Part shown: positions 14,505-61,631 of the stretch, piece by piece
Layout: each line of letters opens with the position of its first letter
How positions within the stretch are numbered: position 1 is the first letter of the stretch
Notes under the pieces: generated by a model
Databases searched by the model: none
What the model was told of the DNA's origin: nothing
The model's input: only the letters and a program-made list of their open reading frames with translations
Position numbers and translations under genes: made by a program
NCBI GenBank assembly: GCA_015058655.1
Contig: SVBX01000001.1
Coordinates: forward strand, 1 to 64,000
Direction: 5' to 3'
Length of the DNA: 64,000 nucleotides
DNA from: Pseudoselenomonas ruminantium
GTDB taxonomy: Bacteria > Bacillota > Negativicutes > Selenomonadales > Selenomonadaceae

Positions 14505-14651
14505 ATTATAACGCCATTGTTCAGATTTTGTCGATAGACAAAATCTTCCAATCAGCGTTTCAACGAGGCGGGAGATATGCTCTCCCGCCTGTTATGATAT
14601 TCGCCGCCCCCCACCTATAGAGGTGGGGGACATCTTCTTCCGAGTTATAAC
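14505..14651 (-). repeat. R1 repeat, copy A (left end drives tauE)
   Basis: Begins ATTATAACGCCATTG and ends CGAGTTATAAC. Internal hairpins: a TTTTGTC/GACAAAA stem, GGCGGGA/TCCCGCC, and CCCCACCT/AGGTGGGG. On the minus strand the left end reads TCGACA-18 nt-TATAAT towards tauE. A partial second left end follows directly. Confidence 0.85.
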
Positions 14652-14682
14652 ACCATTGTTCCAATTTTGTCGAAGGCAAAAC
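14645..14682. repeat. R1 left-end fragment abutting copy A
   Basis: TTATAACACCATTGTTCC plus the TTTTGTCGAAGGCAAAA stem repeats the first ~38 bases of the element and shares the TTATAAC junction with copy A, as in a tandem insertion. Confidence 0.7.
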
Positions 14683-14766
14683 TGCAGCCCCTGGCGCCAT
14701 TGCCAAAAACCGGGCTATGGCGTAAGATATGGAAAAGAGCGGAGCTATGAGGGGAGAATATTTCAC

Positions 14767-15354
14767 ATGAACAGGCGGGATTTTTTGCGCTATGGCGTGT
14801 CGTGCTTGATGGGGATATTGCTGGGCGAAGGAGGAAATCTCCTGGAGGCATCGCCTTGCAGGCAACCCATGATTTACAAGCGATTTTTCCAATTCACCGA
14901 GTATGAGCGCCGCCAGGCTACGGAGTATCTGGTCATCCACCACACTGGCTTTCCCGGCGCTGACAAGGACTCCACTGCTGCAGGCATACACAAATTCCAT
15001 CAGGGAACCAACAAGTGGGCCGGCATCGGCTATCACTACCTTATCCGCAAAGACGGAACTATCGAGCAGGGGCGGCAGCCCGAGATGGTAGGCGCCCATT
15101 CCTATGAGCACAACAAGACTTCCATCGGGATCTGCCTGGCAGGCAATTTCAATCTCGGCAAGCCTACGGAGGAACAAATGGCATCGGTGAAGGAGCTTTG
15201 CTGGTGGCTGTGCCAGGAGTATGGCCTGGACCCTCTGAAAAAAGGCGTCATAGTAGGGCATCGCGACCTCAATGATACTGAATGCCCCGGCAAGAACCTC
15301 TACAAGAAACTGGGCGAGATCCGGCGATTCTGCTTTGACAGGACAAATCCATAA
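14767..15354 (+). CDS. N-acetylmuramoyl-L-alanine amidase, Tat-exported
   Basis: Cell-wall hydrolase of the amidase_2/PGRP fold, 195 residues. The N-terminus MNRRDFLRYG with a following hydrophobic stretch is a twin-arginine signal. The zinc site is visible: His58/His59 in VIHHTG, His165 in GHRDLNDT and Cys173 in ECPG. The middle block KWAGIGYHYLIRKDGTIEQGRQ is typical of the family. Start ATG 14767 was chosen because it yields the Tat signal and follows GGGGAG; the frame extends upstream only through R1 repeat sequence. It has its own terminator and stands alone between opposite-strand genes. Confidence 0.9.
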   Translation: MNRRDFLRYGVSCLMGILLGEGGNLLEASPCRQPMIYKRFFQFTEYERRQATEYLVIHHTGFPGADKDSTAAGIHKFHQGTNKWAGIGYHYLIRKDGTIEQGRQPEMVGAHSYEHNKTSIGICLAGNFNLGKPTEEQMASVKELCWWLCQEYGLDPLKKGVIVGHRDLNDTECPGKNLYKKLGEIRRFCFDRTNP

Positions 15355-15355
15355 G

Positions 15356-15398
15356 AAAATGAGGCGTGGCGCCATCTCCTGGCGCCACGCCTCATTTT
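15356..15398. terminator. Long perfect bidirectional terminator
   Basis: 19-bp perfect arms from AAAATGAGGCGTGG to CCACGCCTCATTTT with a 5-nt loop. It separates the amidase (plus) from the small membrane protein gene (minus). Confidence 0.9.
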
Positions 15399-15438
15399 CA
15401 TGTCTCCATATGCAAGATGCGCCGCCGAAGCTCTGCCG

Positions 15439-15789
15439 TCACTTCAGCAATCTCATAATGAACCAGAAGGCCAGGGCAATTCCTGCAGCTCCCAGCAATA
15501 CAGGCAGGACGAAGCTGACAAACAGTACCAGCACAGCAGCCACCCCGATGAGGGCAGCTATCCTGATGAGCCTTGCGCGCCAATCATTGCCGAAAACCAT
15601 GCCGCCCCAACTCAATCCACGGGAGAACGGGGAACGGCTGGAATAGACACGGTAGTATCGAGTGGCTTGCTCCCTTTCCTGCTGATAGGAACCGCCAGCC
15701 TCGCTGCCGTCTTCATCTATGGTCAAGCCATTGTAATGATCTTTCTCGTCCCTGGTCAAAACACGGACAGGTTCTCTCTCTTCTTCCAT
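15439..15789 (-). CDS. Hypothetical small membrane protein
   Basis: 116 residues with no recognised family. The first ~70 residues are charged and polar (EEEREPVRVLTRDEKDHYNG). The last ~45 form one or two hydrophobic helices (about 74-95 and 97-113), so it is probably a membrane-anchored protein with a soluble N-terminus. Start ATG 15789 follows AGGAGG at 7 nt, which supports real translation. It lies 51 nt downstream of the AGCS symporter gene and may be co-transcribed with it. Confidence 0.7.
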   Translation of the reverse strand: MEEEREPVRVLTRDEKDHYNGLTIDEDGSEAGGSYQQEREQATRYYRVYSSRSPFSRGLSWGGMVFGNDWRARLIRIAALIGVAAVLVLFVSFVLPVLLGAAGIALAFWFIMRLLK

Positions 15790-15840
15790 CTGCTCCGCCT
15801 CCTTCTAGGCGCTATCATTATCTTACATCTTCATGGAATC

Positions 15841-17250
15841 TTACTGATAGTCTACGATTTCCCCGTTCTTCTCCCTTTCCACTACTTCCTTCTGGAACTC
15901 GAAGCACTCCTTGGCCACATCATTGGAAAGCCACAGCAGGCAGATGAGGTTCGGGATGGCCATGAGGCCGTTCATCGTATCGGAGAAGTTCCAGACTACT
16001 TCCAAAGAAGTGGTTGCCCCCACGAAGGTAATCATGCCGAAAATCACGCGGTAGCTCATGATGACCTTGCGATTCTTGATGAGGTACTCCAGAGCCTTCT
16101 CGCCATAATACTCCCAGCCGAGAATGGTGGAGAAGGCGAAGAGTGCCAGGGCAATGGAAATCACCAGCTTGCCGTAATCGCCAAAGACCGTGGAGAAGGC
16201 CAGGATGGTGAGCTGGGCGCCGGACACGGGTGCCCCGGTAGCGGGATCGATGGTGCCCAGGAGGCCAGAAGAGGCTATGACAAGTCCCGTCAGCATGCAG
16301 ACAATCATGGTATCGAAGAAGGTGCCCGTCATATTCACATAGCCCTGACGGGAAGCGTGGTCAGTGCGGGCTGCCGCAGCCGCGATGGGCGCAGAGCCCA
16401 GGCCTGCCTCATTGGAGAACACGCCCCGGGCCACGCCCCAGCGCATGGAGGTGAGCATGGAGGCCACGATGGAACCTCCCACGCCACCTGCCACGGAGTC
16501 AAAGGAGAAAGCCATGCGGAACATCTCCGCCACACCCGCAGGCACTGCCTCAAAATTCACGATAATGACAATAAGAGCTGTAATGAAATAGAAAGCCGCC
16601 ATAGCGGGCACCACGATGCTTGACACCTTGCCAATGCTGCGTATGCCGTTCACCAGCGTGCAGGTGGCTGCTACCATGATGACTACGCCGGTAAGCCAGA
16701 CAGGCACATCATAGCTGGCAGAGAGAGCCGCAGAGATCGAGTTGGCCTGAGTCATGTTGCCGATGCCGAAGGAGGCCAGCACCACGAAAGAAGCAAAGAG
16801 AGCCGCCAGGGTTCGCCCGATATACTTATTGCTGAAGCCACTTTTCATGGCGTACATGGGGCCGCCGCACATCTCTCCCACGCTGTTGGTTTCGCGGTAC
16901 TTCACCGCCAGCACAGACTCAGCGTATTTGGTGGAAAGTCCGAAAGCTGCGCTGATCCACATCCAGATAAGCGCACCGGGACCGCCCAGCACCATAGCCG
17001 TGGCCACGCCTACGATATTGCCCGTGCCCACAGTGGCGGACAAAGCCGTCATCAGGGACTGGAAGGGAGAAATATCTCCCTCATGGCTCTTCTTCTGGCG
17101 GAATATCATCTTGATAGCGTAGATAAGATTAATCCAGGGCAGGAAGCGCAGCCTCACCGTCAGAAAAACGCCTGTTCCCACCAGAAAGGCCAGCATGATT
17201 GGCCCCCAGACAAAATCATTGATGTCTGCCAAAAGTCTCGATACATCCAT
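15841..17250 (-). CDS. Alanine/glycine:cation symporter (AGCS family)
   Basis: 469-residue inner-membrane carrier with about 11 hydrophobic helices that takes up alanine or glycine with sodium or protons. AGCS landmarks: PFQSLMTALSATVGTGNIVGVATA near the N-terminus (substrate and sodium site), GGPGALIWMWISAAFGLSTKYAE, GGPMYAMKSG, and RWGVARGVFSNEAGLGSAPIAAAAA in the second half. The start ATG 17250 has GAGGGG upstream. It lies 30 nt after the M18 aminopeptidase gene on the same strand; import of amino acids and peptide breakdown may be expressed together. Confidence 0.92.
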   Translation of the reverse strand: MDVSRLLADINDFVWGPIMLAFLVGTGVFLTVRLRFLPWINLIYAIKMIFRQKKSHEGDISPFQSLMTALSATVGTGNIVGVATAMVLGGPGALIWMWISAAFGLSTKYAESVLAVKYRETNSVGEMCGGPMYAMKSGFSNKYIGRTLAALFASFVVLASFGIGNMTQANSISAALSASYDVPVWLTGVVIMVAATCTLVNGIRSIGKVSSIVVPAMAAFYFITALIVIIVNFEAVPAGVAEMFRMAFSFDSVAGGVGGSIVASMLTSMRWGVARGVFSNEAGLGSAPIAAAAARTDHASRQGYVNMTGTFFDTMIVCMLTGLVIASSGLLGTIDPATGAPVSGAQLTILAFSTVFGDYGKLVISIALALFAFSTILGWEYYGEKALEYLIKNRKVIMSYRVIFGMITFVGATTSLEVVWNFSDTMNGLMAIPNLICLLWLSNDVAKECFEFQKEVVEREKNGEIVDYQ

Positions 17251-17280
17251 AAGCTATCCCCTCACTTCATCCGTCTTTGC

Positions 17281-18672
17281 TCAGGCTTCCACCAGGAAAG
17301 CCTGATACCCCTTCCAAACTTCGTAAATATCCACCTTGCTGGTTGCCTCCCAGGGAGCATGCATGGACAGTACCCCCACGCCGCTGTCTATGACCTGCAT
17401 GCCATAAAGGCTCATGATGTAGGCGATGGTACCGCCGCCCCCCAGGTCAACCTTGCCCAGCTCTGCCAGCTGGAAATGGACATTGTGCTTCTTCATGATG
17501 CCGCGGATTTCGCCCAGATACTCCGCGTTGGCATCGTTGGAACCAGACTTGCCCCTGGCCCCGGTGAACTTATTGAACACCATGCCCTTGCCCAGGTAAG
17601 CCACATTCTTCTTGTCAAAGGAAGAAGCATAGAGGGCATCGAAGGCGCTGGACACATCGGAGGAAAGCATCTTGGAGCCTGCCAGGGTACGGCGCACAGC
17701 CAGGTCACTGCCCTGCCCCATGGCGGCAAGCAGCTCTGCCACCACATTCTCGAAGAAGCGGGATTGCATGCCCGTAGCCCCTACGCTGCCGATTTCCTCC
17801 TTGTCCACCAGCAGGCAGCAGGCAGTGCGGCGCATCTTGCCCGTCTCCAGCATAGCCATGAGGGAGGTATAGGCGCACACCCTGTCATCCTGGCCGTAAG
17901 CCAGCACCATGCTGCGGTCAAAGCCCAGCTCCCGGGCCTTGCCTGCAGGCACCAGGCAGAGCTCTGCAGACTGGAAGTCCTCCTCCTCAAGGCCGTACTT
18001 GTCCTTGATAAGCTTCAGTACCCCTGCCTTGACGGATTCCTTCTCTCCTTCTTTCAAAGGATAGTTGCCCACCAGGATGTCCAGGCTCTCGCCCTCAACT
18101 ACCTTGGCACCGGCCTTCTTGAGCTGCTCCTGGGAAAGATGTATCAGGAGGTCGGTGACGCAGAATACCGGGTCACTCTCATCCTCGCCGATGCAGATTT
18201 CCACCACCTCGCCAGAAGGCTTCACCACCACGCCGTGCAGGGCCAGGGGAAGGGCCACCCATTGATATTTCTTGATGCCGCCGTAGTAGTGGGTATCAAG
18301 GTAGGCCAGCCCGCCCTCCTCATAGAGAGGATTCTGCTTCACATCCAAGCGGCAGGTATCGATATGGGCCCCCAAAATATTCATGCCCTTTTCCAACGGC
18401 TCCTCGCCGATGTTGAAGAGCACCACGGACTTCTTCATGTTCACCGCATAGACCTTGTCGCCGGGCTTTATCTGCTCCCCGGCCTCCAGCACGGCAAAGA
18501 GGTCGCGGTAGCCAGCCTTCTCCGCCAACTCCACTGCCTCGGCGGCACTTTCCCGCTCCGTCTTGCAGCGGGAAAGAAAATCTATATAGCCTGCAGAAAG
18601 CTTCTCCAGGGCTTCCTTGTCAATGTCCGTATACTGGCTCCAGATGGAGTCTTTTGCTTTATCATCTGACAT
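17281..18672 (-). CDS. M18-family metalloaminopeptidase
   Basis: Cytoplasmic dizinc aminopeptidase of the M18 (aspartyl aminopeptidase-like) family, 463 residues. Metal and catalytic motifs are visible: NILGAHIDTCRLDVK, LVDKEEIGSVGATGMQS and SMHAPWEATSKVDIYEVWKGY. Length and order match the bacterial M18 group that has the long insert between the first ligand and the EEIGS motif. Start ATG 18672 follows AAAGGA; the reading frame continues 48 codons upstream only by running through the R2 repeat, so that extension was discarded. Confidence 0.9.
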   Translation of the reverse strand: MSDDKAKDSIWSQYTDIDKEALEKLSAGYIDFLSRCKTERESAAEAVELAEKAGYRDLFAVLEAGEQIKPGDKVYAVNMKKSVVLFNIGEEPLEKGMNILGAHIDTCRLDVKQNPLYEEGGLAYLDTHYYGGIKKYQWVALPLALHGVVVKPSGEVVEICIGEDESDPVFCVTDLLIHLSQEQLKKAGAKVVEGESLDILVGNYPLKEGEKESVKAGVLKLIKDKYGLEEEDFQSAELCLVPAGKARELGFDRSMVLAYGQDDRVCAYTSLMAMLETGKMRRTACCLLVDKEEIGSVGATGMQSRFFENVVAELLAAMGQGSDLAVRRTLAGSKMLSSDVSSAFDALYASSFDKKNVAYLGKGMVFNKFTGARGKSGSNDANAEYLGEIRGIMKKHNVHFQLAELGKVDLGGGGTIAYIMSLYGMQVIDSGVGVLSMHAPWEATSKVDIYEVWKGYQAFLVEA

Positions 18673-18698
18673 GAAAAACATTCCTTTCTGTATCAAAT

Positions 18699-19792: not shown

Positions 19793-20583
19793 TCCTGCCC
19801 TTTCCTTTCCGCTGCCTTCACCTGATTGCGCTCATAGAGCGCCCGCAGGCCGGTCAAAGTCAGGAAATGGTCAATCTTGTCGATGGTAGCCGATTCCTTG
19901 GCAATCATCTTGGCCAGGCCCCCCGTGGCGATGACCCTCATATCGCAGCCCATCTCTTCCTTGATGCGGCGCACTATCTCGTCAATCTGACCCACATAGC
20001 CAAAGATGATGCCCGCCTGCATACCCTGGATGGTGTTGCGGCAGATGACCTGCTTGGGGGGCACCAGCTCGATGCGGGGCAGCTGGGCTGCCTGCTGAAA
20101 GAGGGCGTCAGCACTGGTGCCGATGCCTGGAGCTATGACGCCGCCCAAAAAATCCCCATTCTCCGCCACCACATCGAAGGTGGTGGCAGTGCCGATGTCG
20201 ATGACGATAAGGGGGCCGCCGTACTGCTCATAGGCTCCCACCACATTCACGATGCGGTCAGCGCCGATAGCCCTTGGATTCTCATAATGGAGCTTGATGC
20301 CCGTCTTGATGCCGGGCCCCACCACCAGCGGCTTGATGTGGAAATAGCGCTCGCACATCTTCACCATGGGCACTACCAAAGGCGGCACCACAGACGAAAT
20401 GATGATGGCCTCAATATCGCTCATGCTGATGCCCTGAAAGCGGAAAAGGTCATTGAGGAGCATGCCGTATTCATCCCCGGTTTTCTGTCTGTCCGTGGAG
20501 ATGCGCCAGTGCTTCACCAGCTTCTTGCCCTCATAGGTGCCCATGACCGTATTGGTATTGCCTATATCAAAAACTAACAGCAA
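19789..20583 (-). CDS. coaX: Type III pantothenate kinase (TTG start)
   Basis: First step of CoA synthesis, ASKHA fold, not feedback-inhibited by CoA; 264 residues. Visible are the P-loop-like DIGNTNTVMG at the N-terminus, RIVNVVGAYEQYG, VIDIGTATTFDVV and GGVIAPGIGTSADALFQ, plus ATGGLAKMI near the C-terminus. The start is TTG 20583, 8 nt after GGGAGG. The frame is open upstream through R1 repeat copy B, which explains over-long predictions. It is separated from birA by copy B, whose outward TATAAT (20605-20610) is only 22 nt from this start. Confidence 0.93.
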   Translation of the reverse strand: MLLVFDIGNTNTVMGTYEGKKLVKHWRISTDRQKTGDEYGMLLNDLFRFQGISMSDIEAIIISSVVPPLVVPMVKMCERYFHIKPLVVGPGIKTGIKLHYENPRAIGADRIVNVVGAYEQYGGPLIVIDIGTATTFDVVAENGDFLGGVIAPGIGTSADALFQQAAQLPRIELVPPKQVICRNTIQGMQAGIIFGYVGQIDEIVRRIKEEMGCDMRVIATGGLAKMIAKESATIDKIDHFLTLTGLRALYERNQVKAAERKGQE

Positions 20584-20604
20584 AGTATTTTCCTCCCGTT
20601 GGGA

Positions 20605-20748
20605 ATTATAACGCCGTTGTTCCAGTTTTGCCGTAGGCAAAACTTCCTCTTGGCGTTTCAACGAGGCGGGAGATATGTGCTCACCGCCTGTTATGATATT
20701 CGCCCCCCCACCTGCAGAGGTGGGGGACATCTTCTTCCTCGTTATAAT
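20605..20748 (-). repeat. R1 repeat, copy B (between birA and coaX)
   Basis: Left end ATTATAACGCCGTTG, right end CTCGTTATAAT, with the GTTTTGCC/GGCAAAAC, GGCGGGA and CCCCACCT/AGGTGGGG stems. The birA stop codon TAA is formed by the right end, and the left end places TATAAT in front of coaX. Confidence 0.85.
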
Positions 20749-21740
20749 TTCTTCGGCCTGATGGACACATCCCCGGCCATCACCGTGCGCACGCCCTCAG
20801 CCGTCTCCACCAGCAAGGCACCGTAAGAATCGATATCCACTGCCCTGCCCGTGAATTCCTCATCGCTGTGGATGCCGATGACCCTGACTTCCTGTCCCAA
20901 GGTCACCGAATACTTCCGCCAAGCCTCGAAGACAGGCTCAAAACCTTCGCTTATAGCTACCTTGTACCATTTTTCCAGGGAACGCAGCACCGTCTGCAGG
21001 AATCTCACCCTGGACACCGGCTCCCCTTTCATTATCTCCATAGAAGTGGCCTTGTCCCGCAAGTCATCCGGGAATTCCTCTTCCTTGATATTGGCATTGA
21101 TGCCGATGCCCAGGATGATATGCTTGATGCGGTCTATGTCGCACCCGGCCTCCGTGAGGATGCCCACCAGCTTCTTGCCCTCATAGACGATATCATTAGG
21201 CCATTTGATGCCGGGGGTCAGGCCCACCTTCCGCATGGCCTCCGTCACAGCCACCGCAGCCAGCAAAGTGCATTTGGGTGCTTCCTGGGGTGCGAAGGGC
21301 GGGCAAAGCACCACCGAGAACCAGATTCCTGTCCCCGCCGGGGAAAAGAAGCTCCGCTCCAGGCGTCCCCGCCCTCCGGTCTGGCTTTCCGCCACCACCA
21401 CCAGGCCGTCAAGTGCCTTCCAGCCACCGGGTTCATTTTTTATGAGCATCTGCTTGGCCACATTGTTCGTAGAATCCACCTGCTGGAAGTTCTTGATCAA
21501 GCGCCCCACCAATTCCGTATTCAGGCCATGGCTTATCTCACTGGCCAGCAAGCTGTCCGGCGACTCCTTGAGCACATATCCATTGCGGGGATGACTCACG
21601 ATCTCATAGCCTGATTTGCGAAGCTCCTGGATGTGTTTCCACACAGCCGTCCTAGTAACCCCCAGCATTTCTGCCATTTCTTCCCCGGAGACATAGTTAT
21701 CCCCGGCCTGACGCAATAAATCAAGTATCTTGCCACGCAT
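20742..21740 (-). CDS. birA: Bifunctional biotin operon repressor / biotin-[acetyl-CoA-carboxylase] ligase
   Basis: Attaches biotin to carboxylase carrier proteins and, with its N-terminal winged helix, can repress biotin genes; 332 residues. The HTH occupies about 1-60 (GEEMAEMLGVTRTAVWKHIQELRK). The ligase domain contains DSTNNVAKQ, the biotinyl-AMP loop GGRGRLERSF, IKWPNDIVYEGKKLVGIL and LGIGINAN. A C-terminal SH3-like domain follows (about 275-330). ATG 21740 follows GGGGGG; longer frames run into R1 copy C. First gene of birA-coaX-dusB. Confidence 0.94.
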   Translation of the reverse strand: MRGKILDLLRQAGDNYVSGEEMAEMLGVTRTAVWKHIQELRKSGYEIVSHPRNGYVLKESPDSLLASEISHGLNTELVGRLIKNFQQVDSTNNVAKQMLIKNEPGGWKALDGLVVVAESQTGGRGRLERSFFSPAGTGIWFSVVLCPPFAPQEAPKCTLLAAVAVTEAMRKVGLTPGIKWPNDIVYEGKKLVGILTEAGCDIDRIKHIILGIGINANIKEEEFPDDLRDKATSMEIMKGEPVSRVRFLQTVLRSLEKWYKVAISEGFEPVFEAWRKYSVTLGQEVRVIGIHSDEEFTGRAVDIDSYGALLVETAEGVRTVMAGDVSIRPKKL

Positions 21741-21760
21741 ATATTTCCCCCCTGACGGGA

Positions 21761-21905
21761 CTATAACGCAATTGTTCAAATTTTGCCGTAAGCAAAATCT
21801 TCCCATCAGCGTTCCAACGAGGCGGGAGATATATGCTCCCAACCTATAGCAAATAATGGACTCGCCACCTCTGAAGGTGGGAGACATCTTCTCCCGAGTT
21901 ATAAC
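21761..21905 (-). repeat. R1 repeat, copy C (upstream of birA)
   Basis: Left end CTATAACGCAATTGTTC (outward TATAGT towards birA, 21 nt from its start codon), right end CCGAGTTATAAC. The TTTTGCCGTAAGCAAAA stem and the CCACCT/AGGTGG stem are present; the central part is more diverged than in copies A and B. Confidence 0.8.
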
Positions 21906-21988
21906 CGATTAAAAACCTAATAATAACACGGTAACAGTATACCATAAAAACATAGCTCCTGACACGCTGAAATTTCCTGCCTGCAAGC

Positions 21989-22026
21989 AAAAAGAGGTTC
22001 GAGGAACAAGAATGTCCTCAAACCTC
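21989..22026 (-). terminator. Terminator of the tpsA-tpsB operon
   Basis: Minus strand GAGGTTTGAGGA / TTCCTCGAACCTC stem followed by TTTTT, 17 nt past the tpsB stop codon. Confidence 0.85.
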
Positions 22027-22042
22027 ACGCTGATAAAATCTG

Positions 22043-23665
22043 TCAGAAAGTCTTCCCCGCCATGAACCAAAGCCTGCCGCGGCTTTCGGCCTCCCTGGAC
22101 ATGAATTCGTCGGAGCCGATGCGTCTGGCGTAGTCCAGGCGGGCGAACCAGTTGCCCGGGCGGGTGTAGGAGAGGCCTACGCCCCAGCCTTTCAGAGTCA
22201 TGTTGCCTTCGTCACCGGAGCGGGCTATTTCCACATGGCCCGCGTCCAGATAGGTGGAAAGGGTCAGGCCCTTGGCGGGGGTGTGGTAGCGCAGTTCTAC
22301 CGTGCCCAAGAGTCCTTCGTCACCGGAGCCTTCGCCCTGGGGGTAGGCTCTCACGCCGTGGGCGCCGCCCAGGTAGATATGCTCGCTGCTGTCCAGGTTG
22401 CCGGAGGCTTTCTGGGCGGAGAATTTACATAAGAGGTCGGTGGCATGGCCCAGGGATTGCACTGCCGTCAGGTCGAAGGTGCCCTTGGTGAACTGCCCTT
22501 CGGTGCTCCCCAGGGAGGCAAGTTCCCTGGCCTCCTGGGAGTCCGGCACCAGGGTGCCGGAGTGGAGGGTCAGGTCGTAGCGGAGCCAGGTGGCAGGCAG
22601 GCGGCAGGTGCCGTCTACCCCCAGATGGAATACATGGCTGTGCTTCTTCCAGGACACATTGAAGGCGGTCAGCCCGTCCGTGATGTTGCGGTAGTCGTAG
22701 CCGTATTTGACTTCCATGGAGCCCCTGCCCGTGTCAAAGAGGGGCGTCCTGCCGTAGATGCTGTAGGTGTCGGCGGTGCCTTCTGCCCCCAGGGCCTGGG
22801 CCAGGGCGCCCAGTTCGTAGTCGGAGCGGGAGTAGCCCAGGCCGATGCGGGTGCCGCTGTGGCCTACGGGCATTTCAGCGGAGAGGTTGTAACCGTGCTG
22901 GTGCTTGTTGGAGATGAGGACGCCAAAATCCACTTTGGCCCCGGTGCCCCCAAGATTGCCCAGTTCCCCCTGCAAGCCGTAGCGGTAGCGGCCCGCGCTC
23001 TTGCTGCCGTAGTTTTCGGCGTAAACGATGAAGGAATTGGCCTTGCCGTCCATCACCTTGATATGGAAGTCGCTCTCCCCCGGTTCGCTGCCGGGAAAGA
23101 GGACGCCGCCTACTTCCACCCCTGCGATGTCCTGCAGTTTCCGCATGGCGGCTTCTACCTTGCGGGTCTTGATGATGTCCCCTGATTTCATCCCTGCGAA
23201 GTACCCTTCGGCAATGGAGGACTTCAATCTGCTGTCATTATCTATGGTGATCTTGCCGAAGCGCCCCGGGGCGATGACTGCCCGCAGCCTGCCCCATTCT
23301 GCCGTCTGGGCGGGGATATAGGCGGTGGCGGCGGGGTAGCCCTTCTGGCGGGCGTAGGCGGTAATCTTGTCCAAAACCTCATTGAGTTCTGTCTGGGAGA
23401 TTTCCCTGCCTGTGATGGGGGCTGTCAGTTCCTGGAGTCTTTCTTCGTTCAGCACCAGACCTTCATGCTCCACGGTGATGCGGGTGAGGGTGAAATGAGC
23501 CGCCCCTGCTTCATTCGCCGTGGGCAGGTTGTCCGTGAGGTTCGTTTCCTTCTGGGGCGCAGGTGGCAGGCTCTCCCCCGGCGCGGGGACGGCAGGAGCC
23601 GCCCCGGCAGTGAGGGGGAAGGTGCAGGCCAGGGCCAGGGTGGTTGCGGTGTATTTTAAGTTCAA
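22043..23665 (-). CDS. Two-partner secretion outer-membrane transporter (TpsB, ShlB/FhaC family)
   Basis: Outer-membrane pore that exports the adjacent TpsA protein; 540 residues. A signal peptide (about 1-23, LALACTFPLTAGAAPA) is followed by a Pro-rich linker. A first POTRA domain lies at about 55-130 (LTRITVEHEGLVLNEERL, YARQKGYPAATAYIPAQ) and a second at about 130-215. A 16-strand-type beta barrel ends in aromatic residues (FMAGKTF), the usual barrel-assembly signal. Family motif VRAYPQGEGSGDEG is seen near residue 430. Translation starts at TTG 23665 after an AGAGG site. It is downstream of tpsA, separated by an R2 repeat. A 121-bp near-copy of its 3' end lies at 27.9 kb. Confidence 0.92.
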   Translation of the reverse strand: MNLKYTATTLALACTFPLTAGAAPAVPAPGESLPPAPQKETNLTDNLPTANEAGAAHFTLTRITVEHEGLVLNEERLQELTAPITGREISQTELNEVLDKITAYARQKGYPAATAYIPAQTAEWGRLRAVIAPGRFGKITIDNDSRLKSSIAEGYFAGMKSGDIIKTRKVEAAMRKLQDIAGVEVGGVLFPGSEPGESDFHIKVMDGKANSFIVYAENYGSKSAGRYRYGLQGELGNLGGTGAKVDFGVLISNKHQHGYNLSAEMPVGHSGTRIGLGYSRSDYELGALAQALGAEGTADTYSIYGRTPLFDTGRGSMEVKYGYDYRNITDGLTAFNVSWKKHSHVFHLGVDGTCRLPATWLRYDLTLHSGTLVPDSQEARELASLGSTEGQFTKGTFDLTAVQSLGHATDLLCKFSAQKASGNLDSSEHIYLGGAHGVRAYPQGEGSGDEGLLGTVELRYHTPAKGLTLSTYLDAGHVEIARSGDEGNMTLKGWGVGLSYTRPGNWFARLDYARRIGSDEFMSREAESRGRLWFMAGKTF

Positions 23666-27838: not shown

Positions 27839-27881
27839 CTCCCTATGCCTAAATTTTAGCACAGGGAGGCCCTTTTTTCTA
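27839..27881. terminator. Terminator hairpin, copy 1 of a 42-bp direct repeat
   Basis: CTCCCTATGC...GCACAGGGAG stem with T-tracts on both strands. Copy 2 at 28052-28093 differs at one base apart from the T-run length. The two copies bracket the tpsB remnant. Confidence 0.75.
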
Positions 27882-27890
27882 TCAAATTTA

Positions 27891-28011
27891 TCAGAACACC
27901 TTCCCGGTCATGAACCAGATCCTGCCGCGGCTTTCGGCGTCCTTGGACATGAATTCGTCTGAGCCGATGCGGCGGGCGTAGTCCAGGCGGGCGAACCAGT
28001 TGCCCGGGCGG
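27891..28011 (-). pseudogene. Remnant of a TpsB transporter gene (last ~40 codons)
   Basis: Minus-strand translation gives GNWFARLDYARRIGSDEF, then a segment ending WFMTGKVF and a TGA, closely matching the C-terminus of the intact TpsB at 22 kb. DNA similarity starts at the stop codon and ends abruptly at GCCCGGGCGG (28011). No start or upstream domain remains. It implies that a second tpsB once stood here or that a gene-conversion fragment was left behind. Confidence 0.85.
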
Positions 28012-49180: not shown

Positions 49181-49208
49181 ATTATAACGCAAATGTTCTA
49201 ATTTTTCC
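49181..49208 (-). repeat. R1 left-end fragment upstream of the DUF362 gene
   Basis: ATTATAACGCAAATGTTC followed by TAATTTTTCC matches the left ~28 bases of R1. Minus-strand reading gives a promoter-like TATAAT facing the DUF362 gene. Confidence 0.65.
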
Positions 49209-49227
49209 AAAGATAACTTTTATCAAT

Positions 49228-50683: not shown

Positions 50684-50718
50684 AAGCTTCTCTGCCCAAG
50701 CGGCAGAGAAGCTTTTTT
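50684..50718 (+). terminator. Terminator of the DAACS symporter gene
   Basis: 13-bp arms AAGCTTCTCTGCC / GGCAGAGAAGCTT, 5-nt loop, followed by TTTT. Confidence 0.9.
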
Positions 50719-50730
50719 CCTACCCAAGAC

Positions 50731-50764
50731 CTATCGACAAAATCTGACCATTGGCGTTATAATA
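50731..50764 (+). repeat. R1 left-end fragment (inverted) with promoter, upstream of the rubredoxin gene
   Basis: Reverse complement of the first ~34 bases of R1 copy A. It supplies TCGACA (50734-50739), 18-nt spacer and TATAAT (50758-50763), 46 nt before the start codon of the flavin reductase-rubredoxin gene, the same geometry as at other copies but on the opposite strand. Confidence 0.7.
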
Positions 50765-53539: not shown

Positions 53540-54115
53540 CGGATCATACCCGCGCGTACGGGGCATGATTCATTCGCCAACCAACATATAAATTCCGGTT
53601 CATCCCCACATGCGTGGGGCATACGCGTAGGCGCTACCGGCAGGACCGTCGATGCACGGTTCATCCCCACATGCGTGGGGCATACCACATACTCATAACT
53701 GATACTGTCGAACAGGAACGGTCCATCCCCACATGCGTGGGGCATACAGCCATTAACAGATTTAATCCGGGAGGCTATGCGGTTCATCCCCACATGCGTG
53801 GGGCATACTCTCTGCTAGGACGCTTCTGGTCATACTCTACCGGTTCATCCCCACATGCGTGGGGCATACAAGAATCCTTATTTCATGCGGCCTGCGGGAC
53901 TTCGGTTCATCCCCACATGCGTGGGGCATACGCTTGGTGGCTCCTTATTCTGTTCCTGTTTGCCGGTTCATCCCCACATGCGTGGGGCATACAGCCACGG
54001 CCTATTCCCATGCGGATATTCTGACGGTTCATCCCCACATGCGTGGGGCATACGATATGGGACACCTTGGAAGTCTGGCTGTAGTTCGGTTCATCCCCAC
54101 ATGCGTGGGGCATAC
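53540..54115 (-). CRISPR. CRISPR array, type I-E-like repeat, nine repeats plus one degenerate
   Basis: 29-bp repeats (minus strand GTATGCCCCACGCATG... ending GATGAACCG) begin at 53596, 53657, 53719, 53780, 53841, 53903, 53964, 54025 and 54087. The eight spacers are 32 or 33 bp. The repeat at 53719 has one change. A strongly degenerate repeat lies at 53540-53568, with only 27 bp to its neighbour. The repeat is of the E. coli type I-E class (CCCC...GGGG stem, GAACCG end). By analogy the array is read on the minus strand with the leader at the high-coordinate end; the worn repeat is then at the old, distal end. No cas gene is in the window. Confidence 0.97.
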
Positions 54116-54342
54116 GATTCGTACCATCTAAAGATAATTTCCCCCATAATGACCTTGCCTGAGGAGATAGTCCTCTTACGCCATCTTCCATAATCAAGAC
54201 TCCAAATACACATAAATTCTATCAAATAAAAAATGATTCATGCTCAAGCAATCCATTTTCTCTTTCTGTAAACCTTGTCAGTTACTTCTACACACAGTCA
54301 GTTTTTCCTGCCACTAAAGGAAAATGGCTAATCATACACAGC
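54116..54342. other. Presumed CRISPR leader and intergenic stretch
   Basis: AT-rich DNA next to the intact end of the array, with runs such as ATAAATTCTATC and AAATAAAAAATG. No reading frame or cas gene is seen. It is the expected place for the array promoter and leader if the array is read on the minus strand. Confidence 0.5.
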
Positions 54343-54413: not shown

Positions 54414-54912
54414 TTATTCATCTTTCCTTGTCAACAGGCAGACATTCTCCACATGTGAAGTATTGGGGAACATATCCACTGGCTGCACCTTCCGGGCCTT
54501 GTACCCCAGTTCATCCAGCACCGCGATATCCCTGGCCAGGGTGGCGGGATTGCAGGAGACATAGACTATGCGCTCCGGCTGCATGTCGGCGAAGGTCTTC
54601 AGCACCGTCTCTGTACAGCCTGCCCTGGGGGGATCTACCACTACCACATCGGCCCGAATGCCCTGCTTGTAGAGGCGGGGCATTACCTGGGTGGCATCGC
54701 CTACGATGAATTCGGCGTTGCGCACATTGTTGTCCCTGGCGTTCTTCTGGGCATCCTATATGGCGGGCTTCACGATTTCGATGCCGATGACCTCTCTGGC
54801 CTTCTGGGCCAGAAACAGGGTGATGGTGCCGGTGCCGCAGTAGGCGTCAATGACGGTTTCCTCCCCCTTGAGGTTGGCATATTCCAGCGCCTTGTTGTAG
54901 AGGACTTCCGCC
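54414..54912 (-). pseudogene. Decaying partial second copy of rlmD (3' third)
   Basis: About 445 bp nearly identical (about 15 mismatches by eye) to the 3' part of the intact rlmD (56025-56470). It keeps [35 protein letters not shown] and the [10 protein letters not shown] motif, but a CAG-to-TAG change makes an in-frame stop (54756-54758). The 5' two-thirds are missing: similarity stops exactly where an R1 repeat begins (54913). The last codons differ from the intact gene ([12 protein letters not shown]). Confidence 0.9.
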
Positions 54913-55029
54913 TAAGCAAAATCTTCCAATCAGCGTTTCAACAAAGCTGGAAATATTAGCTCACCGCCTGTTATGATATGAGCCACCCTCAGTTACAGAG
55001 CTAGGAGACATCTTATTCCGAGTTATAAG
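54913..55029 (-). repeat. R1 repeat, copy D (left end truncated)
   Basis: Starts inside the TTTTGC stem (TAAGCAAAATCTTCC) and runs to TTCCGAGTTATAAG. It joins the rlmD partial copy on the left and shares its right-end TTATAAG with copy E, so D and E are in tandem. Confidence 0.8.
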
Positions 55030-55164
55030 GCCATTGTTCCAGTTTTGCCGTAGGCAAAACCTCCTCTTGGCCTTTCAACGAGGCGGGAGATATTAACTCG
55101 CCGCCTGTTAGTAGTTTGCCGCCCCCACTTATGGAAGTGGGGGACATCTTGTACTCGTTATAAT
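55023..55164 (-). repeat. R1 repeat, copy E (fused to the 3' end of a coding gene)
   Basis: Left end TTATAAGGCCATTGTTCC, right end GTACTCGTTATAAT, all three internal stems present. Its right ~36 bases form the last codons and stop of the 55129-55719 gene. Confidence 0.85.
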
Positions 55165-55719: not shown

Positions 55720-55741
55720 CAAAGAATCCTTCCAAATAGCA

Positions 55742-55765: not shown

Positions 55766-55959
55766 TAGTGTTCATGCTAGATGACAAGCTTGTACTGTAC
55801 AGCCCAAGCCAGGCCAAGTCTCCAGTGTATATTTATTGTCCCCAAGGGCATCGCCCCTCTTGACTGGAAGGGATGGCGTGGGTCATCCGTCCGCACCATA
55901 TGTTTTCTAAGTACATGATAGCAGAAAAAAGCGAATCTGTCAAAACATCCCTAATAAAA

Positions 55960-57342
55960 TCAACGGTTACGGGAATCGATTCTTTGTAGCAATGTTACGC
56001 ACTCCACATGTGAAGTATTGGGAAACATATCCACCGGCTGCACCTTCCGGGCCTTGTACCCCAGTTCATCCAGCACCGCGATATCCCTGGCCAGGGTGGC
56101 GGGATTGCAGGAGACATATACTATGCGCTCCGGCTGCATGTCGGCGAAGGTCTTCAGCACTGTCTCTGTGCAGCCTGCCCTGGGGGGATCTACCACTACC
56201 ACATCGGCCCGGATGCCCTGTTTGTAGAGGCGGGGCATGACCTGGGTGGCATCGCCTACGATGAATTCGGCGTTGCGCACATTGTTGTCCCTGGCGTTCT
56301 TCTGGGCATCCTGTATGGCGGGCTTCACGATTTCGATGCCGATGACCTCTCTAGCCTTTTGGGCCAGGAACAGGGTGATAGTGCCGGTGCCGCAGTAGGC
56401 GTCAATGACAGTCTCCTCTCCCTTGAGGTTGGCATATTCCAGCGCCTTGTTGTAGAGGACTTCCGCCTGGACGGTGTTTACCTGGAAGAAGGAACGGGGG
56501 GAAATGTGGAAGTTCAGCCGTCCCAGACCGTCCTGAATGGTGGGACGCCCCCACAGGAGCTTGGTGTCCCTGCCCATGATGACATTGTTGCGATAGGTCT
56601 GGATATTCTGGTGAATGCTGACCACCTTGGGCAGCCTTGAGCGCAGCATCTTGACGAATTCCTTTTCCCTGGGCAGGGTCTTGGTGGCGGTGACAATCAC
56701 CACCATGATATCCCCATGCTTGCCCACGCGGCCCACCACATGGCGCAGGACGCCGGTGTGCTTGTCCTCGTTGTATACGGGAATGTTCAATTTGGTGACG
56801 ATTTCCCTTACGGCATTCACCACCTCATTGTTGCCCTCTTTCTGGATATGGCAGTCCGCAGTGTCGATAATCCTATGGCTCCCCTGGGCAAAGCAGCCAA
56901 TGACGGTCTTGCCCTTTTCCCTGCCAATGGGGAACTGCATCTTGTTGCGGTAGTTCCAAGGGGTAGCCGCCCCCAGAGTCGGCTCCACGAACAGGTCAGG
57001 CTGCTTGCCAATACGGGTCACGGCATCAATGACCTGCTGGCGCTTGGCCTTCAGCTGTGCCTCATAGCTGAGGTGCTGGAGCTGGCAGCCGCCGCATTCC
57101 TTGTAAATTGGGCAGACAGGCTCCACCCGGTCTCCGCTCTGGCGGAGGATTTCCAGCAATTTGCCCGTGGCATAGGTTTTCTTGACTTCCGTAATGCGCG
57201 CCTTGACCTTTTCACCCGGCAGGGCGTAGGGCACGAAGACAGTGAAATCCTCATAGCGCCCCACCCCTTCGCCGCTGGTGCCCAGAGTGTTTATCTCAAT
57301 CTCGTAAATCTGTCCCTGCTGGACAGGTATCTTGCCTTTCAT
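55960..57342 (-). CDS. rlmD: 23S rRNA (uracil-C5)-methyltransferase, RlmD/RlmCD family
   Basis: 460-residue SAM-dependent m5U methyltransferase of 23S rRNA. An N-terminal TRAM domain (about 8-65) is followed by the Fe-S cysteines CPIYKECGGCQLQHL. The catalytic domain has [31 protein letters not shown] (SAM site), [10 protein letters not shown] (nucleophile Cys) and [11 protein letters not shown]. The length is normal. ATG 57342 overlaps the gph stop codon (ATGA), so translation is coupled. A partial, decaying second copy of its 3' third lies at 54.4-54.9 kb. Confidence 0.94.
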   Translation of the reverse strand: MKGKIPVQQGQIYEIEINTLGTSGEGVGRYEDFTVFVPYALPGEKVKARITEVKKTYATGKLLEILRQSGDRVEPVCPIYKECGGCQLQHLSYEAQLKAKRQQVIDAVTRIGKQPDLFVEPTLGAATPWNYRNKMQFPIGREKGKTVIGCFAQGSHRIIDTADCHIQKEGNNEVVNAVREIVTKLNIPVYNEDKHTGVLRHVVGRVGKHGDIMVVIVTATKTLPREKEFVKMLRSRLPKVVSIHQNIQTYRNNVIMGRDTKLLWGRPTIQDGLGRLNFHISPRSFFQVNTVQAEVLYNKALEYANLKGEETVIDAYCGTGTITLFLAQKAREVIGIEIVKPAIQDAQKNARDNNVRNAEFIVGDATQVMPRLYKQGIRADVVVVDPPRAGCTETVLKTFADMQPERIVYVSCNPATLARDIAVLDELGYKARKVQPVDMFPNTSHVECVTLLQRIDSRNR

Positions 57343-58052
57343 ACTTCCTCACTTGCCTCGCTGCCGGTCACAAACTCCACCTTGGTAAAGAGGTCAGCAG
57401 GCATTTCCAGAATGAATCTGGCACCGCTTTCCTCCAGTTCCTCCCTGGTGCGGAAGCCCCAGGTGACCCCCAGGGCGATGGCACCGGCGTTCTTGGCCGT
57501 CTCCATGTCCACGCTGCTGTCGCCAAAGTAAGCTACTTCCTCCGGCTTCACGCCCATCTTCTCCGCCAGCTTCAGCACCTTCAGGGGATTGGGTTTCCGT
57601 GGCAGATCCGGCTGGTCGCCGATTACCTCCACAAAAGTACCCTCGGCAAAGAGCTCCCGACAGATTTCCTCGGCGGCGCTCTGATGCTTGTTGGTGCAGA
57701 CCGCCATGGGCACTCCCATTTCCTTCAGGCGCCTCAGCATATTGAAGATGCCCGCATAGGGACGGGTCTTGTGGAGTATATTCTTGGCGTAGCAGGCCTT
57801 GTACTCTGCCAAAAGCTGGTCAACCAAAGCTTCATCCCCTGCCTTGTCCTCCGGCAGGACACGCTCGATAAGCTTGCGAGAGCCGTTGCCTACCTTGTAG
57901 CGGTAGAGGTCAACTTCAAAGGTAGGATAGCCGTGAGCCGTCAGCACTTCATTTACGCTGTCCGCCAGGTCCTCAAGTGAATCTATCAGAGTGCCGTCCA
58001 GGTCAAAGACCGCAGCCTTGGCAGTGACGGCAGCCCGGTTAAAATATTGCAT
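57339..58052 (-). CDS. gph: HAD-family phosphatase, phosphoglycolate phosphatase-like
   Basis: 237-residue haloacid dehalogenase hydrolase, subfamily IA. The nucleophile motif is AVFDLDGTLIDSLEDLADSVN, motif II is VCTNKHQ and the acidic motif is VAYFGDSSVDMETAKNAGAIALGVTWGF. Cap-domain residues are in the C1 position. This is the pattern of Gph/PGP enzymes that clear 2-phosphoglycolate, although HAD substrates are hard to predict. ATG 58052 follows AAAGGA. It starts the gph-rlmD pair and follows an R2 repeat. Confidence 0.88.
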   Translation of the reverse strand: MQYFNRAAVTAKAAVFDLDGTLIDSLEDLADSVNEVLTAHGYPTFEVDLYRYKVGNGSRKLIERVLPEDKAGDEALVDQLLAEYKACYAKNILHKTRPYAGIFNMLRRLKEMGVPMAVCTNKHQSAAEEICRELFAEGTFVEVIGDQPDLPRKPNPLKVLKLAEKMGVKPEEVAYFGDSSVDMETAKNAGAIALGVTWGFRTREELEESGARFILEMPADLFTKVEFVTGSEASEEV

Positions 58053-58075
58053 GATAATCCTTTCTGTTCGAAAAA

Positions 58076-58210
58076 AGCCTTCCCCTTGAGGGGAAGGTGG
58101 CAGCCGAAGGCTGACAGATGAGGTGGAAATGAACTAAATACTTCAGCCTGACTCAAAAAGTCGCACCTCATCCGCCCCTTCGGGGCACACCTTCCCCAGA
58201 GGGGAAGGCT
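58076..58210. repeat. R2 repeat, copy 2
   Basis: Ends AGCCTTCCCCTTGAGGGGAA and CCCCAGAGGGGAAGGCTT, inner GATGAGGTGG / CACCTCATCC arms and a CAGCCGAAGGCTG hairpin. It fills the gap between gatB and gph. Confidence 0.85.
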
Positions 58211-58218
58211 TTATTGTC

Positions 58219-59661
58219 TCAGCCGTCCAGCTTCTGGGCCAGCAGCTGGTTCACCATCTGGGGGTTGGCCTTGCCCTTGGAGGCTTTCATGACCTGGCCC
58301 ACCAGGGCGCCGATGGCCTTTTTGTTGCCGCCCTTGTAGTCGTCCACTGCCTTCTGATTCTTGGCAATGACCTCGTCCACAATGCCCTCGATGGCCTTGG
58401 TATCAGTTATCTGCACCAGGCCCTTGTCCTTGACGATTTTTTCGGGGCTGTCGGTGTTTGTCCACATTTCCTTGAAGACCTTCTTGGCAATCTTGCCGGA
58501 AATGGTGTCCTTCATGATGAGCTGGATCATCTCGCCCAAGCGTTGTGCCTCCACAGGAGACTTGCTGATATCCAGGCCCTCATCATTGAGGTTTTTCAGC
58601 AGGTCGCCCATCATCCAGTTGGCAGCCAGCTTGGCATCGGCACCGGTGGCCACCACGGCATCGAAATACTCAGCCATGGCGCGGCTGCTGGTAATGATGC
58701 CTGCATCGTAGTCGGACAGGCCGAAATCCTTTTCCAAGCGGGCGCGGCGGGCATCCGGCAGTTCCGGCAGCTCGCTGCGGTATTTGTCAATGGTCTCCTG
58801 GCTGGTGACGATAGGTGGCAGATCCGGCTCCGGCATATAGCGGTAGTCGTGGGCGTTTTCCTTGCTGCGCATGGAAAGGGTGATGCCCTGCACAGGGTCA
58901 AAGGTGCGGGTCTCCTGCACGATATGGCCACCATCCTCCAACACCTCGGTCTGGCGCTCAATCTCGTAGTTGATGGCGTCCTCAAGGTTCTTGAAGGAGT
59001 TGATGTTCTTCATCTCCGTGCGGGTACCCAGCTCCTTGGAGCCCACGGGGCGCAGGGACACATTGATGTCGGCGCGGAGGTTGCCTTCCTCCATGCGGCA
59101 GTTGGACACATCGATGTACTCCATGATGGCCTTGATTTTTTCCATGTAGGCACGGGCTTCCTCGGCGGAGCTCATGTCAGGCTCGGAAACGATTTCCAGC
59201 AGGGGCACGCCGGTGCGGTTGTAATCCACATTGGAAGAAGCGGAGTCCTTGATGTTGGTGCCGGAATGCACCAGCTTGCCTGCGTCCTCCTCCATGTGGA
59301 TGCGGGTCAGGCGGATGCGCTTCTTCTCCCCCTCCACATCAATATCCACCCAGCCATGCTCGGCAATGGGCAGGTCGTACTGGGATGTCTGCCAGTTCTT
59401 GGGCAGGTCGGGATAGTAGTAGTTCTTGCGGTCAAACTTGCTGTACTTGTTGATTTCGCAGTTGGTGGCAAGACCCGCCTTGATGCCGAACTCCACCACC
59501 CGCTGATTCACCGTGGGCAGCACGCCGGGCATCCCCAGGCACACAGGGCACACATGGGTGTTCTGGTCTGCGCCAAAGCTGGTGGCGCAGCCGCAGAAAA
59601 TCTTGGTCTTGGTCTTCAGTTCGCAATGTATTTCCAGGCCGATTACGGCTTCATACTTCAT
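58219..59661 (-). CDS. gatB: Asp-tRNA(Asn)/Glu-tRNA(Gln) amidotransferase subunit B
   Basis: Kinase and tRNA-binding subunit of GatCAB, which converts mischarged Glu-tRNA(Gln) or Asp-tRNA(Asn); 480 residues. [20 protein letters not shown] with later [12 protein letters not shown] forms the zinc site. [32 protein letters not shown] and [17 protein letters not shown] are signature blocks, and a YqeY-like tail domain (about 410-480) ends the protein. ATG 59661 overlaps the gatA stop (TGATG). Last gene of gatC-gatA-gatB. Confidence 0.97.
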
Positions 59662-61130
59662 CAGTTGTTACCTCCCAGCTTCGCCATCTTCGTGTGATAG
59701 TCCTGACTCTGCTCATAGGTGTAAGCCGCGCGGATAATGGTTTCCTCATCCAAAGCCTTGCCGATGATCTGCATGCCGATGGGCATGCCCTTGCTGCTAA
59801 AGCCGCAGGGCAGGGAAATGCCTGGCAGGCCTGCCAGGTTAAGGGGCACGGTGCAAGCATCCTGCAAGTACATCTGCAGGGGGTCGCCGGCCATCTCGCC
59901 GATCTTGAAGGCCGTGGTGGGCGCCACGGGAGCCAGGATCACATCCACCTGCTCAAAGGCCTTGGCATAGTCCTCTGCCACCAGGGTGCGCACCTTCATA
60001 GCCTTCAGGTAATAAGCATCGTAGTAGCCTGCAGACAGGGCGTAGTTGCCGATGACGATGCGGCGCTTCACTTCCTCGCCGAATTTCTCCGTGCGGGTGT
60101 TGGTCATCATGGCTACCAGATCCTCGCCTTCCACGCGCTCGCCGTAGCTTACGCCGTCATAGCGCTGCAGGTTGGTAGCAGCCTCGGCGGGAGCAATGAG
60201 GTAGTAGGCAGAAATGGCGTAGTCCGTATGGGGCAGGGAGATATCCATGATCTCTGCTCCCATTTCCTTGTATTTCTCAATGGCAGCCCGGATGGCTTTC
60301 TCCACCTCGGGATCCATGCCCTTGACGAAATACTCCTTGGGCAGGCCAATCTTCAGCCCCTTCACATCCTCCACCAGAGCCTTGGTGAAGTCAGGCACAG
60401 CCACCCCGCTGGAGGTGGAATCCATATCATCATGGCCGGAAATCACATTGAGGATATGGGCGCAGTCCGTCACATCGCGGGTGAGAGGACCAATCTGGTC
60501 AAGAGAAGAACCGTAAGCCACCAGTCCGTAGCGGGAAACACGACCGTAGGTAGGCTTCAGTCCCACCACGCCGCAGAAGGAAGCAGGCTGGCGGATGGAA
60601 CCGCCGGTATCGGAACCCAGCGCCCAGATGGAAGTGCCTGCAGCCACAGAAGCTGCGCTGCCGCCGGAGGAACCGCCGGGGACGCACTCGGTATTCCAGG
60701 GGTTGCAGGTGGGATGGTAAGCGGAATTCTCCGTAGAGCCGCCCATGGCGAACTCGTCCATGTTCAGCTTGCCCAGGATAACAGGGTTCTCAGCCTTGAG
60801 CTTGGTCATGACCGTAGCATCATAGGGAGGCACGAAGTGCTCCAGGATCTTGGAAGCACAGGTGGTCCTCACCCCTTTGGTGCAGATATTGTCCTTGATG
60901 GCGCCGGGAATGCCCTCCAGGAAGGAAATCTCCTCTCCCTTGGCAATCTTCTCATCCACTGCCTTGGCCTGGGCCAGAGCCTCATCACGGGTGACGGTGA
61001 GGTAAGCCTTGACTTCGCCCTCCACCTCGTCCATGCGGGCGAGCACATCTTCCGTCAGCTCTACGCTCGTAATCTCTTTATTCACCAGCATCTCATGCAG
61101 GACATGAGCCGGTTTCTCATATAATCTCAC
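59661..61130 (-). CDS. gatA: Asp-tRNA(Asn)/Glu-tRNA(Gln) amidotransferase subunit A (GTG start)
   Basis: Glutaminase subunit of GatCAB, 489 residues of the amidase-signature family. The Ser-cisSer-Lys triad is visible: Lys in [13 protein letters not shown], cis-Ser in [16 protein letters not shown] and nucleophile Ser in [17 protein letters not shown]-terminal [23 protein letters not shown] is standard. GTG 61130 lies 7 nt after AGGAGG; the TTG two codons earlier directly abuts that site and is less likely. It is 21 nt after gatC. Confidence 0.97.
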
Positions 61131-61151
61131 GTTCAATCCTCCTGCCTAAAA

Positions 61152-61442
61152 TTAACCTTCCAGCACCTTGGGCACCTTGAAATAACCGTCTTCCTTGAGG
61201 GGAGCATTGGCAAGGGCTGCCTCCCGGTCAAGGGACTCCTTCACCTCATCCTTGCGGAACACATTCTGCATGGGCAGGGCATAGGTGGTGGGCTTGACAC
61301 TTTCCGTATCCAGCTCGGAGAGGTTGTCCATATAGGTCAGGATCTTGTCCAGCTGACCCAGATAGCGCTCTGTGTCCTCCTCGGCAATGGCAAGCCGGGA
61401 CAGCACAGCTACATTATCCAGGTCCTCTTTCGTTACTTTCAT
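61152..61442 (-). CDS. gatC: Asp-tRNA(Asn)/Glu-tRNA(Gln) amidotransferase subunit C
   Basis: Small linker subunit that stabilises GatA-GatB; 96 residues. The family N-terminus VTKEDLDNVAVLSRLAIAEEDTERYLGQLDKILTYMDNL and the C-terminal LPMQNVFRKDEV / PLKEDGYFKVPKVL are clear. ATG 61442 gives the usual length; a frame extension to 61475 has no better site. R1 copy F lies upstream with TATAAT (minus) 55 nt from this start, the likely promoter of gatCAB. Confidence 0.94.
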   Translation of the reverse strand: MKVTKEDLDNVAVLSRLAIAEEDTERYLGQLDKILTYMDNLSELDTESVKPTTYALPMQNVFRKDEVKESLDREAALANAPLKEDGYFKVPKVLEG

Positions 61443-61496
61443 CTTATTCACCATCCAGCATTTAGAATTCAACATTACAAGGCAATATTATAACGC

Positions 61497-61631
61497 CACT
61501 GTTCAAATTTTGCCATAGGCAAAATCTTCCAATCAGCGTTTCAACGAGGCGGGAGATATTAGCTCACCACCTGTTATGATATGAGCTCCCAAGCTGCAGA
61601 GCCGGGGGACATCTTATTCCGAGTTATAACG
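61497..61631 (-). repeat. R1 repeat, copy F (upstream of gatC)
   Basis: Left end ATTATAACGCCACTG, right end CCGAGTTATAACGC, TTTTGCCATAGGCAAAA stem and the usual CAACGAGGCGGGAGATATTA block. On the minus strand ATGGCA-18 nt-TATAAT points to gatC. Confidence 0.85.

Follow-up and report, generated by a model that had tools for sequence, protein, structure and literature searches.

Several families of short intergenic repeats are available for comparison. In the excerpts cited here, bcr1-type repeats of the Bacillus cereus group are small, non-coding elements present in tens of copies (PMC6542083, PMC3446304); palindrome-associated transposable elements (PATEs) are ends-only derivatives of IS200/IS605 insertion sequences (ISs) that can be moved in trans (PMC7290912); and Correia elements, or Neisseria miniature insertion sequences (NEMIS), have 24-bp inverted repeats, a target duplication and promoters demonstrated by experiment (PMC10969869, PMC2229807). 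These are the closest known systems to R1, a dispersed repeat of about 140 nt that we examined in the first 64,000 nt of contig SVBX01000001.1 of Pseudoselenomonas ruminantium (assembly GCA_015058655.1), a stretch hereafter called the window. With moderate confidence, we regard R1 as a short non-autonomous mobile family of the Selenomonadaceae that was selected after insertion for facing start codons, and whose left end may act as a promoter. Among the matches listed in the literature on Selenomonas no description of R1 was seen, which is no proof of its absence from print.

R1 is a real dispersed repeat, far above chance. This genome (G000, about 3.1 Mb in 50 contigs; its five congeners are G001 to G005) contains 54 distinct full-length copies, counted as those that covered the model ends with a score of at least 70 in the loci taken for analysis; some are identical to one another. 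A covariance model search that scored 150 of the 1301 first-look candidates returned at least 108 matches at E ≤ 0.01, and a BLAST query with R1 returned 47. None of the 54 full-length copies lies inside a predicted gene, and in eight of them the final part of the upstream gene prediction extends into the R1 right end, with gene calls from a simple codon model in which single start codons may be wrong. Under stricter filters, R1 matches were found in 15 of the 41 relatives searched (56, 56, 29, 47, and 63 in the five congeners, 1 to 69 in the others). Twenty of 200 genomes drawn from the class carried R1, 19 belonging to the same family and one to another, and a 29-base R1 pattern retrieved 42 stretches, mostly from rumen Selenomonas and one from Schwartzia. 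R1 is thus patchily present in other Selenomonadaceae. Phages, viral contigs, and plasmids (one Selenomonas plasmid record) gave no R1 match and no exact match to its 18-nt core.

R1 is a non-autonomous mobile element whose mobility, target, structure, and orientation bias could each be demonstrated. The comparison of filled and empty sites in relatives, which the initial annotation had proposed, did reveal empty sites and supports mobility. The list comprises 28 pairs for 18 filled sites and includes same-genome pairs (L065/L311, L060/L147) and poorly aligned ones; the evidence used here comes from loci L088, L004, L090, and L060 only. Empty sites carry a single TTATA at L088, L004, and L090, and L060 has TTATA on the left and TTATT on the right where L134 and L156 have a single TTATT. 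Among 151 distinct copies, a set that includes orthologous ones between genomes (for example, L093 and L281), TTATA stands at both ends of 127, with deviations at the left end only in 8, at the right end only in 16, and at both in none. All 151 copies have A as the fifth base on the left, and of the 16 right-end deviations 12 affect the fifth base only; together with the TTATT of L060, this indicates that the left fifth base belongs to R1 and that insertion follows TTAT.

The three stems that had been claimed inside R1 were confirmed by the covariance model and by covariation. In an alignment of 87 copies (82 distinct rows, 80 loci), aligned to the model and so leaning toward structure, 97.4% of helix cells are paired and 20 of 31 pairs are altered on both sides. 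Not one of 500 shuffled alignments was as high as R1 on any of five measures, and sliding the partners destroyed the pairing signal. Cells that depart from Watson-Crick pairing comprise 30 GT, 31 AC, and 31 other mismatches; the equality of GT and AC means that no RNA strand is favored, and covariation without strand asymmetry fits hairpins near both ends working as DNA. The DNA fold of copy B, one of the copies in the window, gave z values of -6.7 and -6.4. As judged by eye, the smaller forms are built from hairpin 1 and a short hairpin closed by AAC...GTT, followed by ATA (G001 C2:110887 and 456884-456940, L071, and an array in L114), and long forms carry an extra module. The helix AACGAG...CTCGTT of the common form was rejected as a general feature, being broken, also by eye, by the frequent right end CGAGTT. 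In L162 (Schwartzia), L106, and L120, hairpin 1 has turned into a long and perfect palindrome, the product expected from template switching, and two perfect palindromes in this genome (C15:69906-69967 and C32:57330-57391) are built of two R1 right ends.

Random orientation genome-wide had been named as one observation that would speak against a promoter role, and orientation proved non-random. Of the 40 copies in this genome that sit in co-directional gaps, 32 have the left end toward the start (p 0.0002), as do 25 of 32 in other genomes (p 0.002). A left end comes to ≤70 nt from a start 24 times here and 17 times elsewhere, a right end 3 and 4 times. The availability of target sites was insufficient as a cause, since the ratio of TATAA to TTATA in co-directional gaps (164:127) leaves p 7e-5 for 57/72. 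Insertion into native -10 boxes (sense TATAA) was likewise rejected: the mean for -35-like hexamers upstream of the right junction was 2.51 versus 2.49 after shuffling (57 copies). Among diverged copies, 24 of 27 have the left end toward a start, compared with 16 of 26 copies with a sibling at ≥98.5% identity (p 0.028; one copy without context excluded, and 98.5% being one of three cut-offs tried). In 1.47 Mb examined there were 14 left-only R1 ends, 12 of them facing a start, and 5 right-only ends. The left-only set includes two minimal elements that are complete, one copy that is almost full, and four matches with E > 0.1; of the right-only ends, three come from interrupted copies.

The proposal that the left end forms an outward promoter received a mixed answer. 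Read outward, left ends average 9.3 of 12 consensus matches and right ends 6.7 (105 copies), with an 18-nt spacer in 101 of the 105, and several left-only remnants retain TCGACA-18-TATAAT. The hexamers are present as claimed, but the -10 core TATAA is largely the insertion site itself, the -35 hexamer matches the consensus at five of six positions in 27 copies, at four in 37, and at three in 41, and the completeness of TATAAT bears no relation to facing a start. Judged from such consensus matches, an outward promoter at the left end appears plausible. In a consensus scan of 20500-22050, neither copy B nor copy C of the window has a promoter listed at its left end; one is listed at 21965-21936, beyond C.

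In the reading that we favor, the core of R1 would be hairpin 1 plus a second hairpin domain, with TTAT(A) on both flanks and, in the common form, two further stems within the second domain. The element would enter intergenic DNA behind a TTAT, most often a TTATA; the intermediate would probably be folded single-stranded DNA, acted on by an enzyme supplied in trans. Copies whose left end faces a start would then survive better and so become the majority; and since the left end can offer -10 and -35 hexamers, R1 may add a promoter to some genes, the best candidates being tauE and a flavin reductase-rubredoxin fusion gene.

Several results weigh against this reading, and some lend themselves to its rivals. 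TATAAT is complete about as often in start-facing copies (36/73) as in stop-facing ones (11/24), and the promoter scores of 13 left-only remnants show no difference from those of full copies (p 0.78). The age effect is weak: the three cut-offs give p 0.24, 0.11, and 1.0 when co-directional SE:ES is taken alone. Copies with both ends facing a start, or with neither doing so, are oriented along the local majority strand in 17 of 22 cases (p 0.017), as expected of a replication effect; a partly overlapping count on 57 copies found 12 along the majority strand and 2 against it; and the regression for this genome leans to strand majority (0.95, standard error [se] 0.73, versus -0.31, se 0.68, for genes), although that sample is not representative because it was enriched on purpose for divergent, convergent, and opposite contexts. 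Finally, a Y1_Tnp search of the G000 assembly found no Y1 transposase, and no mobilizing enzyme was identified. An origin of the bias in a replication-strand preference at insertion, not in genes, would explain the 17 of 22 divergent or convergent contexts, yet we find it improbable: in 52 copies outside this genome (from G001, G005, and G024, located by the best matches listed and in an 800-kb part of G001) the coefficient was 1.42 (se 0.50) for gene context and 0.01 (se 0.58) for strand majority, and co-directional pairs on the minority strand were gene-facing in 5 of 5. Gene context accounts for orientation better than the local gene-strand majority does, though not in every subset. A stronger version of the promoter proposal, in which the left-end promoter is active and copies are retained for driving the next gene, seems unlikely to us although not negligible. 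The difference in score between the ends, the near-constant spacer, the orientation bias, and the start-facing remnants with their intact TCGACA-18-TATAAT argue for it; the -35 match of three or four positions in 78 of 105 copies, the indifference of TATAAT completeness to facing a start, the missing promoter calls at copies B and C, remnants that score no better than full copies, and the mixed make-up of the 14 left-only ends argue against it. Strong covariation would also suit a structured RNA acting as a cis-regulator in the transcript, which we nevertheless judge very improbable, as GT pairs do not exceed AC mismatches, the birA-coaX copies are absent in five congeners, and Rfam gave no match at gathering score in the window and none on R1 in 20500-22000 at E ≤ 1.

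The mechanism of movement admits further alternatives. It is possible, and we entertain it tentatively, that R1 is an IS200/IS605-derived PATE that a Y1 transposase mobilizes in trans. Insertion behind a constant tetranucleotide in a fixed orientation, the lack of any deviation common to both ends, end-near hairpins with DNA-like covariation, and the occurrence of Y1_Tnp in 29 of 41 genomes searched, the five congeners included, agree with it; that occurrence does not track R1, however, with no Y1_Tnp in G000 or in the R1-bearing G010 and G022 and with many Y1-bearing genomes lacking R1. When the local IS605 left end is used as a model, R1 right ends, reverse-complemented, rank next after the IS605-like sites (E 0.007 and up). 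This similarity is a weak lead: it is confined to one hairpin, its orientation is opposite to a TTAT-element-TTAT reading, and local IS605 ends read TTTAAC/TTCAC, not TTAT. R1 ends homologous to those of an autonomous Y1 element were not found in this genome and the loci searched, a result limited by assembly gaps, and a half-model search of the loci for an autonomous partner gave one left/right end pair only, 272 nt apart, and none around a gene. Y2_Tnp (PF04986) was found in 0 of 25 genomes, with a control that was also without match, so that nothing follows from it. The flanks of the two TnpB genes of this genome are, by eye, not R1-like. Contigs C1, C3, C6, C13, C41, and C44 end inside sequence nested in R1 and 13 further sampled contigs are all ≥5.4 kb; multi-copy ISs are thus missing from an assembly without small contigs, and the Y1 absence is not final. 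The guess of an IS200/IS605 origin made in the initial annotation is compatible with the DNA-type hairpins and the absence of a shared target duplication and falters on the enzyme and the autonomous partner; an IS200/IS605-like mechanism is possible. A DDE-type miniature inverted-repeat transposable element (MITE) with terminal inverted repeats and target duplication is a doubtful candidate. Short inverted ends (about TATAAC/GTTATA), TTATA on both sides, and the TTATA common to adjoining copies in nested and tandem arrangements would favor it, but in none of the 24 deviating copies is a deviation repeated at the opposite end, and L060 excludes a 5-bp target duplication, a 4-bp TTAT duplication staying compatible with the data. 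More speculative still, and in our estimate a long shot, R1 would be a self-contained folded-DNA unit (hairpin 1 plus the AAC...GTT-closed domain, with optional nested hairpins), moved by a non-Y1 enzyme and spreading start-facing promoters, so that selection would have made a selfish repeat into portable 5' ends family-wide.

Five full R1 copies lie in the window, together with a truncated one and several left-end fragments (Table 1). The copies first reported there are real, with the corrections that the one placed at 61497 was 9 nt off and the one at 54913 is left-truncated; the left-end fragments at 14645 and 50731 are sound, and that at 49181 is at chance level by its E value. The six genes named as neighbors match Pfam TauE, Pan_kinase, BPL/HTH_11, GatC, DUF362, and Flavin_Reduct plus rubredoxin-like, and an R1 left end faces the start of each. 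The distance of 20 to 60 nt from a start codon that had been given does not apply to the copies at 14645, 54910, and 55023. Outward hexamers with an 18-nt spacer occur in all six cases, though the -10 of birA reads TATAGT instead of TATAAT. Copy B does supply the birA stop codon; that it ends and restarts transcription was not borne out, since all three terminator-like sites in 20500-22050 are + strand features, whereas birA and coaX run the other way. Elsewhere, counts alone point to a contrast among right-end subfamilies in being terminator-like or not. The copy B site is empty in G001 to G005, where copy C is absent as well, but the coaX/birA sites are not clean filled/empty pairs, the empty relatives differing there by several bases. 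The TATACT stretch of the probable native birA promoter is kept in relatives without R1 (by eye), and L136 has a decayed R1 left end at the site of copy F.

Table 1. R1 copies, left-end fragments, and associated features in the window (hexamers are given as -35, spacer length, -10, read outward, with consensus matches).
Feature	Position	Strand	Remarks
R1 copy A	14506..14649	+	Left end faces tauE (- strand); cmsearch 151 bits; outward TCGACA-18-TATAAT, 11/12
R1 left-end fragment	14645..14685	+	Shares TTATA(A) with copy A right end; half-model E 4e-9
R1 copy B	20606..20746	+	In the birA-coaX interval; 22 nt from its left end to the coaX start; cmsearch 168 bits; toward coaX ACGGCA-18-TATAAT, 9/12
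birA stop codon TAA	20742..20744	-	Inside copy B right-end TTATAA; read from sequence
R1 copy C	21761..21903	+	In front of birA; cmsearch 127 bits; outward ACGGCA-18-TATAGT, 8/12
Probable native birA promoter	21936..21965	-	GTGTCA-18-TATACT with TG, upstream of copy C; consensus scan
Weak left-end fragment	49182..49212	+	Faces DUF362; half-model E 0.64, chance level by score alone; TTGGAA-18-TATAAT, 10/12
Left-end fragment	50708..50762	-	Faces flavin reductase-rubredoxin fusion gene; half-model E 0.002; TCGACA-18-TATAAT, 11/12
Left-truncated R1 copy D	about 54910..55027	+	Adjoins tRNA_U5-meth_tr gene fragment; nhmmer model positions 25-142
R1 copy E	55023..55162	+	Tandem to copy D, TTATA common to both; cmsearch 163 bits
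R1 copy F	61488..61628	+	Left end faces gatC; cmsearch 143 bits; outward ATGGCA-18-TATAAT, 10/12

Other repeats lie in or near R1. The gene fragment next to copy D (54414-54725) is 97% like part of the downstream gene at 55960-57342. The hairpin 3 loop contains a second small element, with CAATGTCATT... ends, at L003, L010, L095, L096, L105, and L216 (the start of contig 41 of this genome), and the loop sequence CCTATAGAGG, or a similar one, is repeated on both sides of it in several copies. The sequence at which the six contigs break is a multi-copy one with GTAGTGAC/GTCACTAC ends that lies nested within the long module of R1. One R1 copy contains, in inverted form, a small module resembling GACGCGAAGCTAGTCCCC, which occurs also outside R1 (L094; upstream of birA in G005, L130). 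Elsewhere in the window, regular repeats spaced 61-62 nt at 53587-54122 resemble an array of clustered regularly interspaced short palindromic repeats (CRISPR), and a 131-nt repeat occurs at 22033-22163 and 27881-28011 (89% identity).

In rumen Selenomonas genomes, a structured mobile repeat is thus found tens of times in the 5' regions of genes. The family comprises young as well as old copies, has empty sites in congeners, and offers a natural experiment on whether the orientation bias of a mobile element arises at insertion or by selection, and it poses the question of which enzyme moves it. Set beside the known systems, R1 resembles the Correia elements of the excerpts cited above in being abundant, intergenic, and gene-upstream with sigma70-like promoter sequences, but it is without their long inverted repeats and target duplication, and its putative promoter consists of consensus matches only, whereas theirs were shown by experiment. 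It is short, hairpin-ended, and non-coding like PATEs; the PATE in the cited part of PMC7290912 carries resident IS605 ends, however, and the R1 ends match no resident IS605 clearly, in an assembly in which no Y1 was found. The bcr1-type repeats belong to another host group, the R1 site is TTAT(A), and the two are likened by description, not by sequence; as described in the excerpts from PMC6542083 and PMC3446304, they too are often part of untranslated regions or of the gaps within operons, a further likeness to R1.

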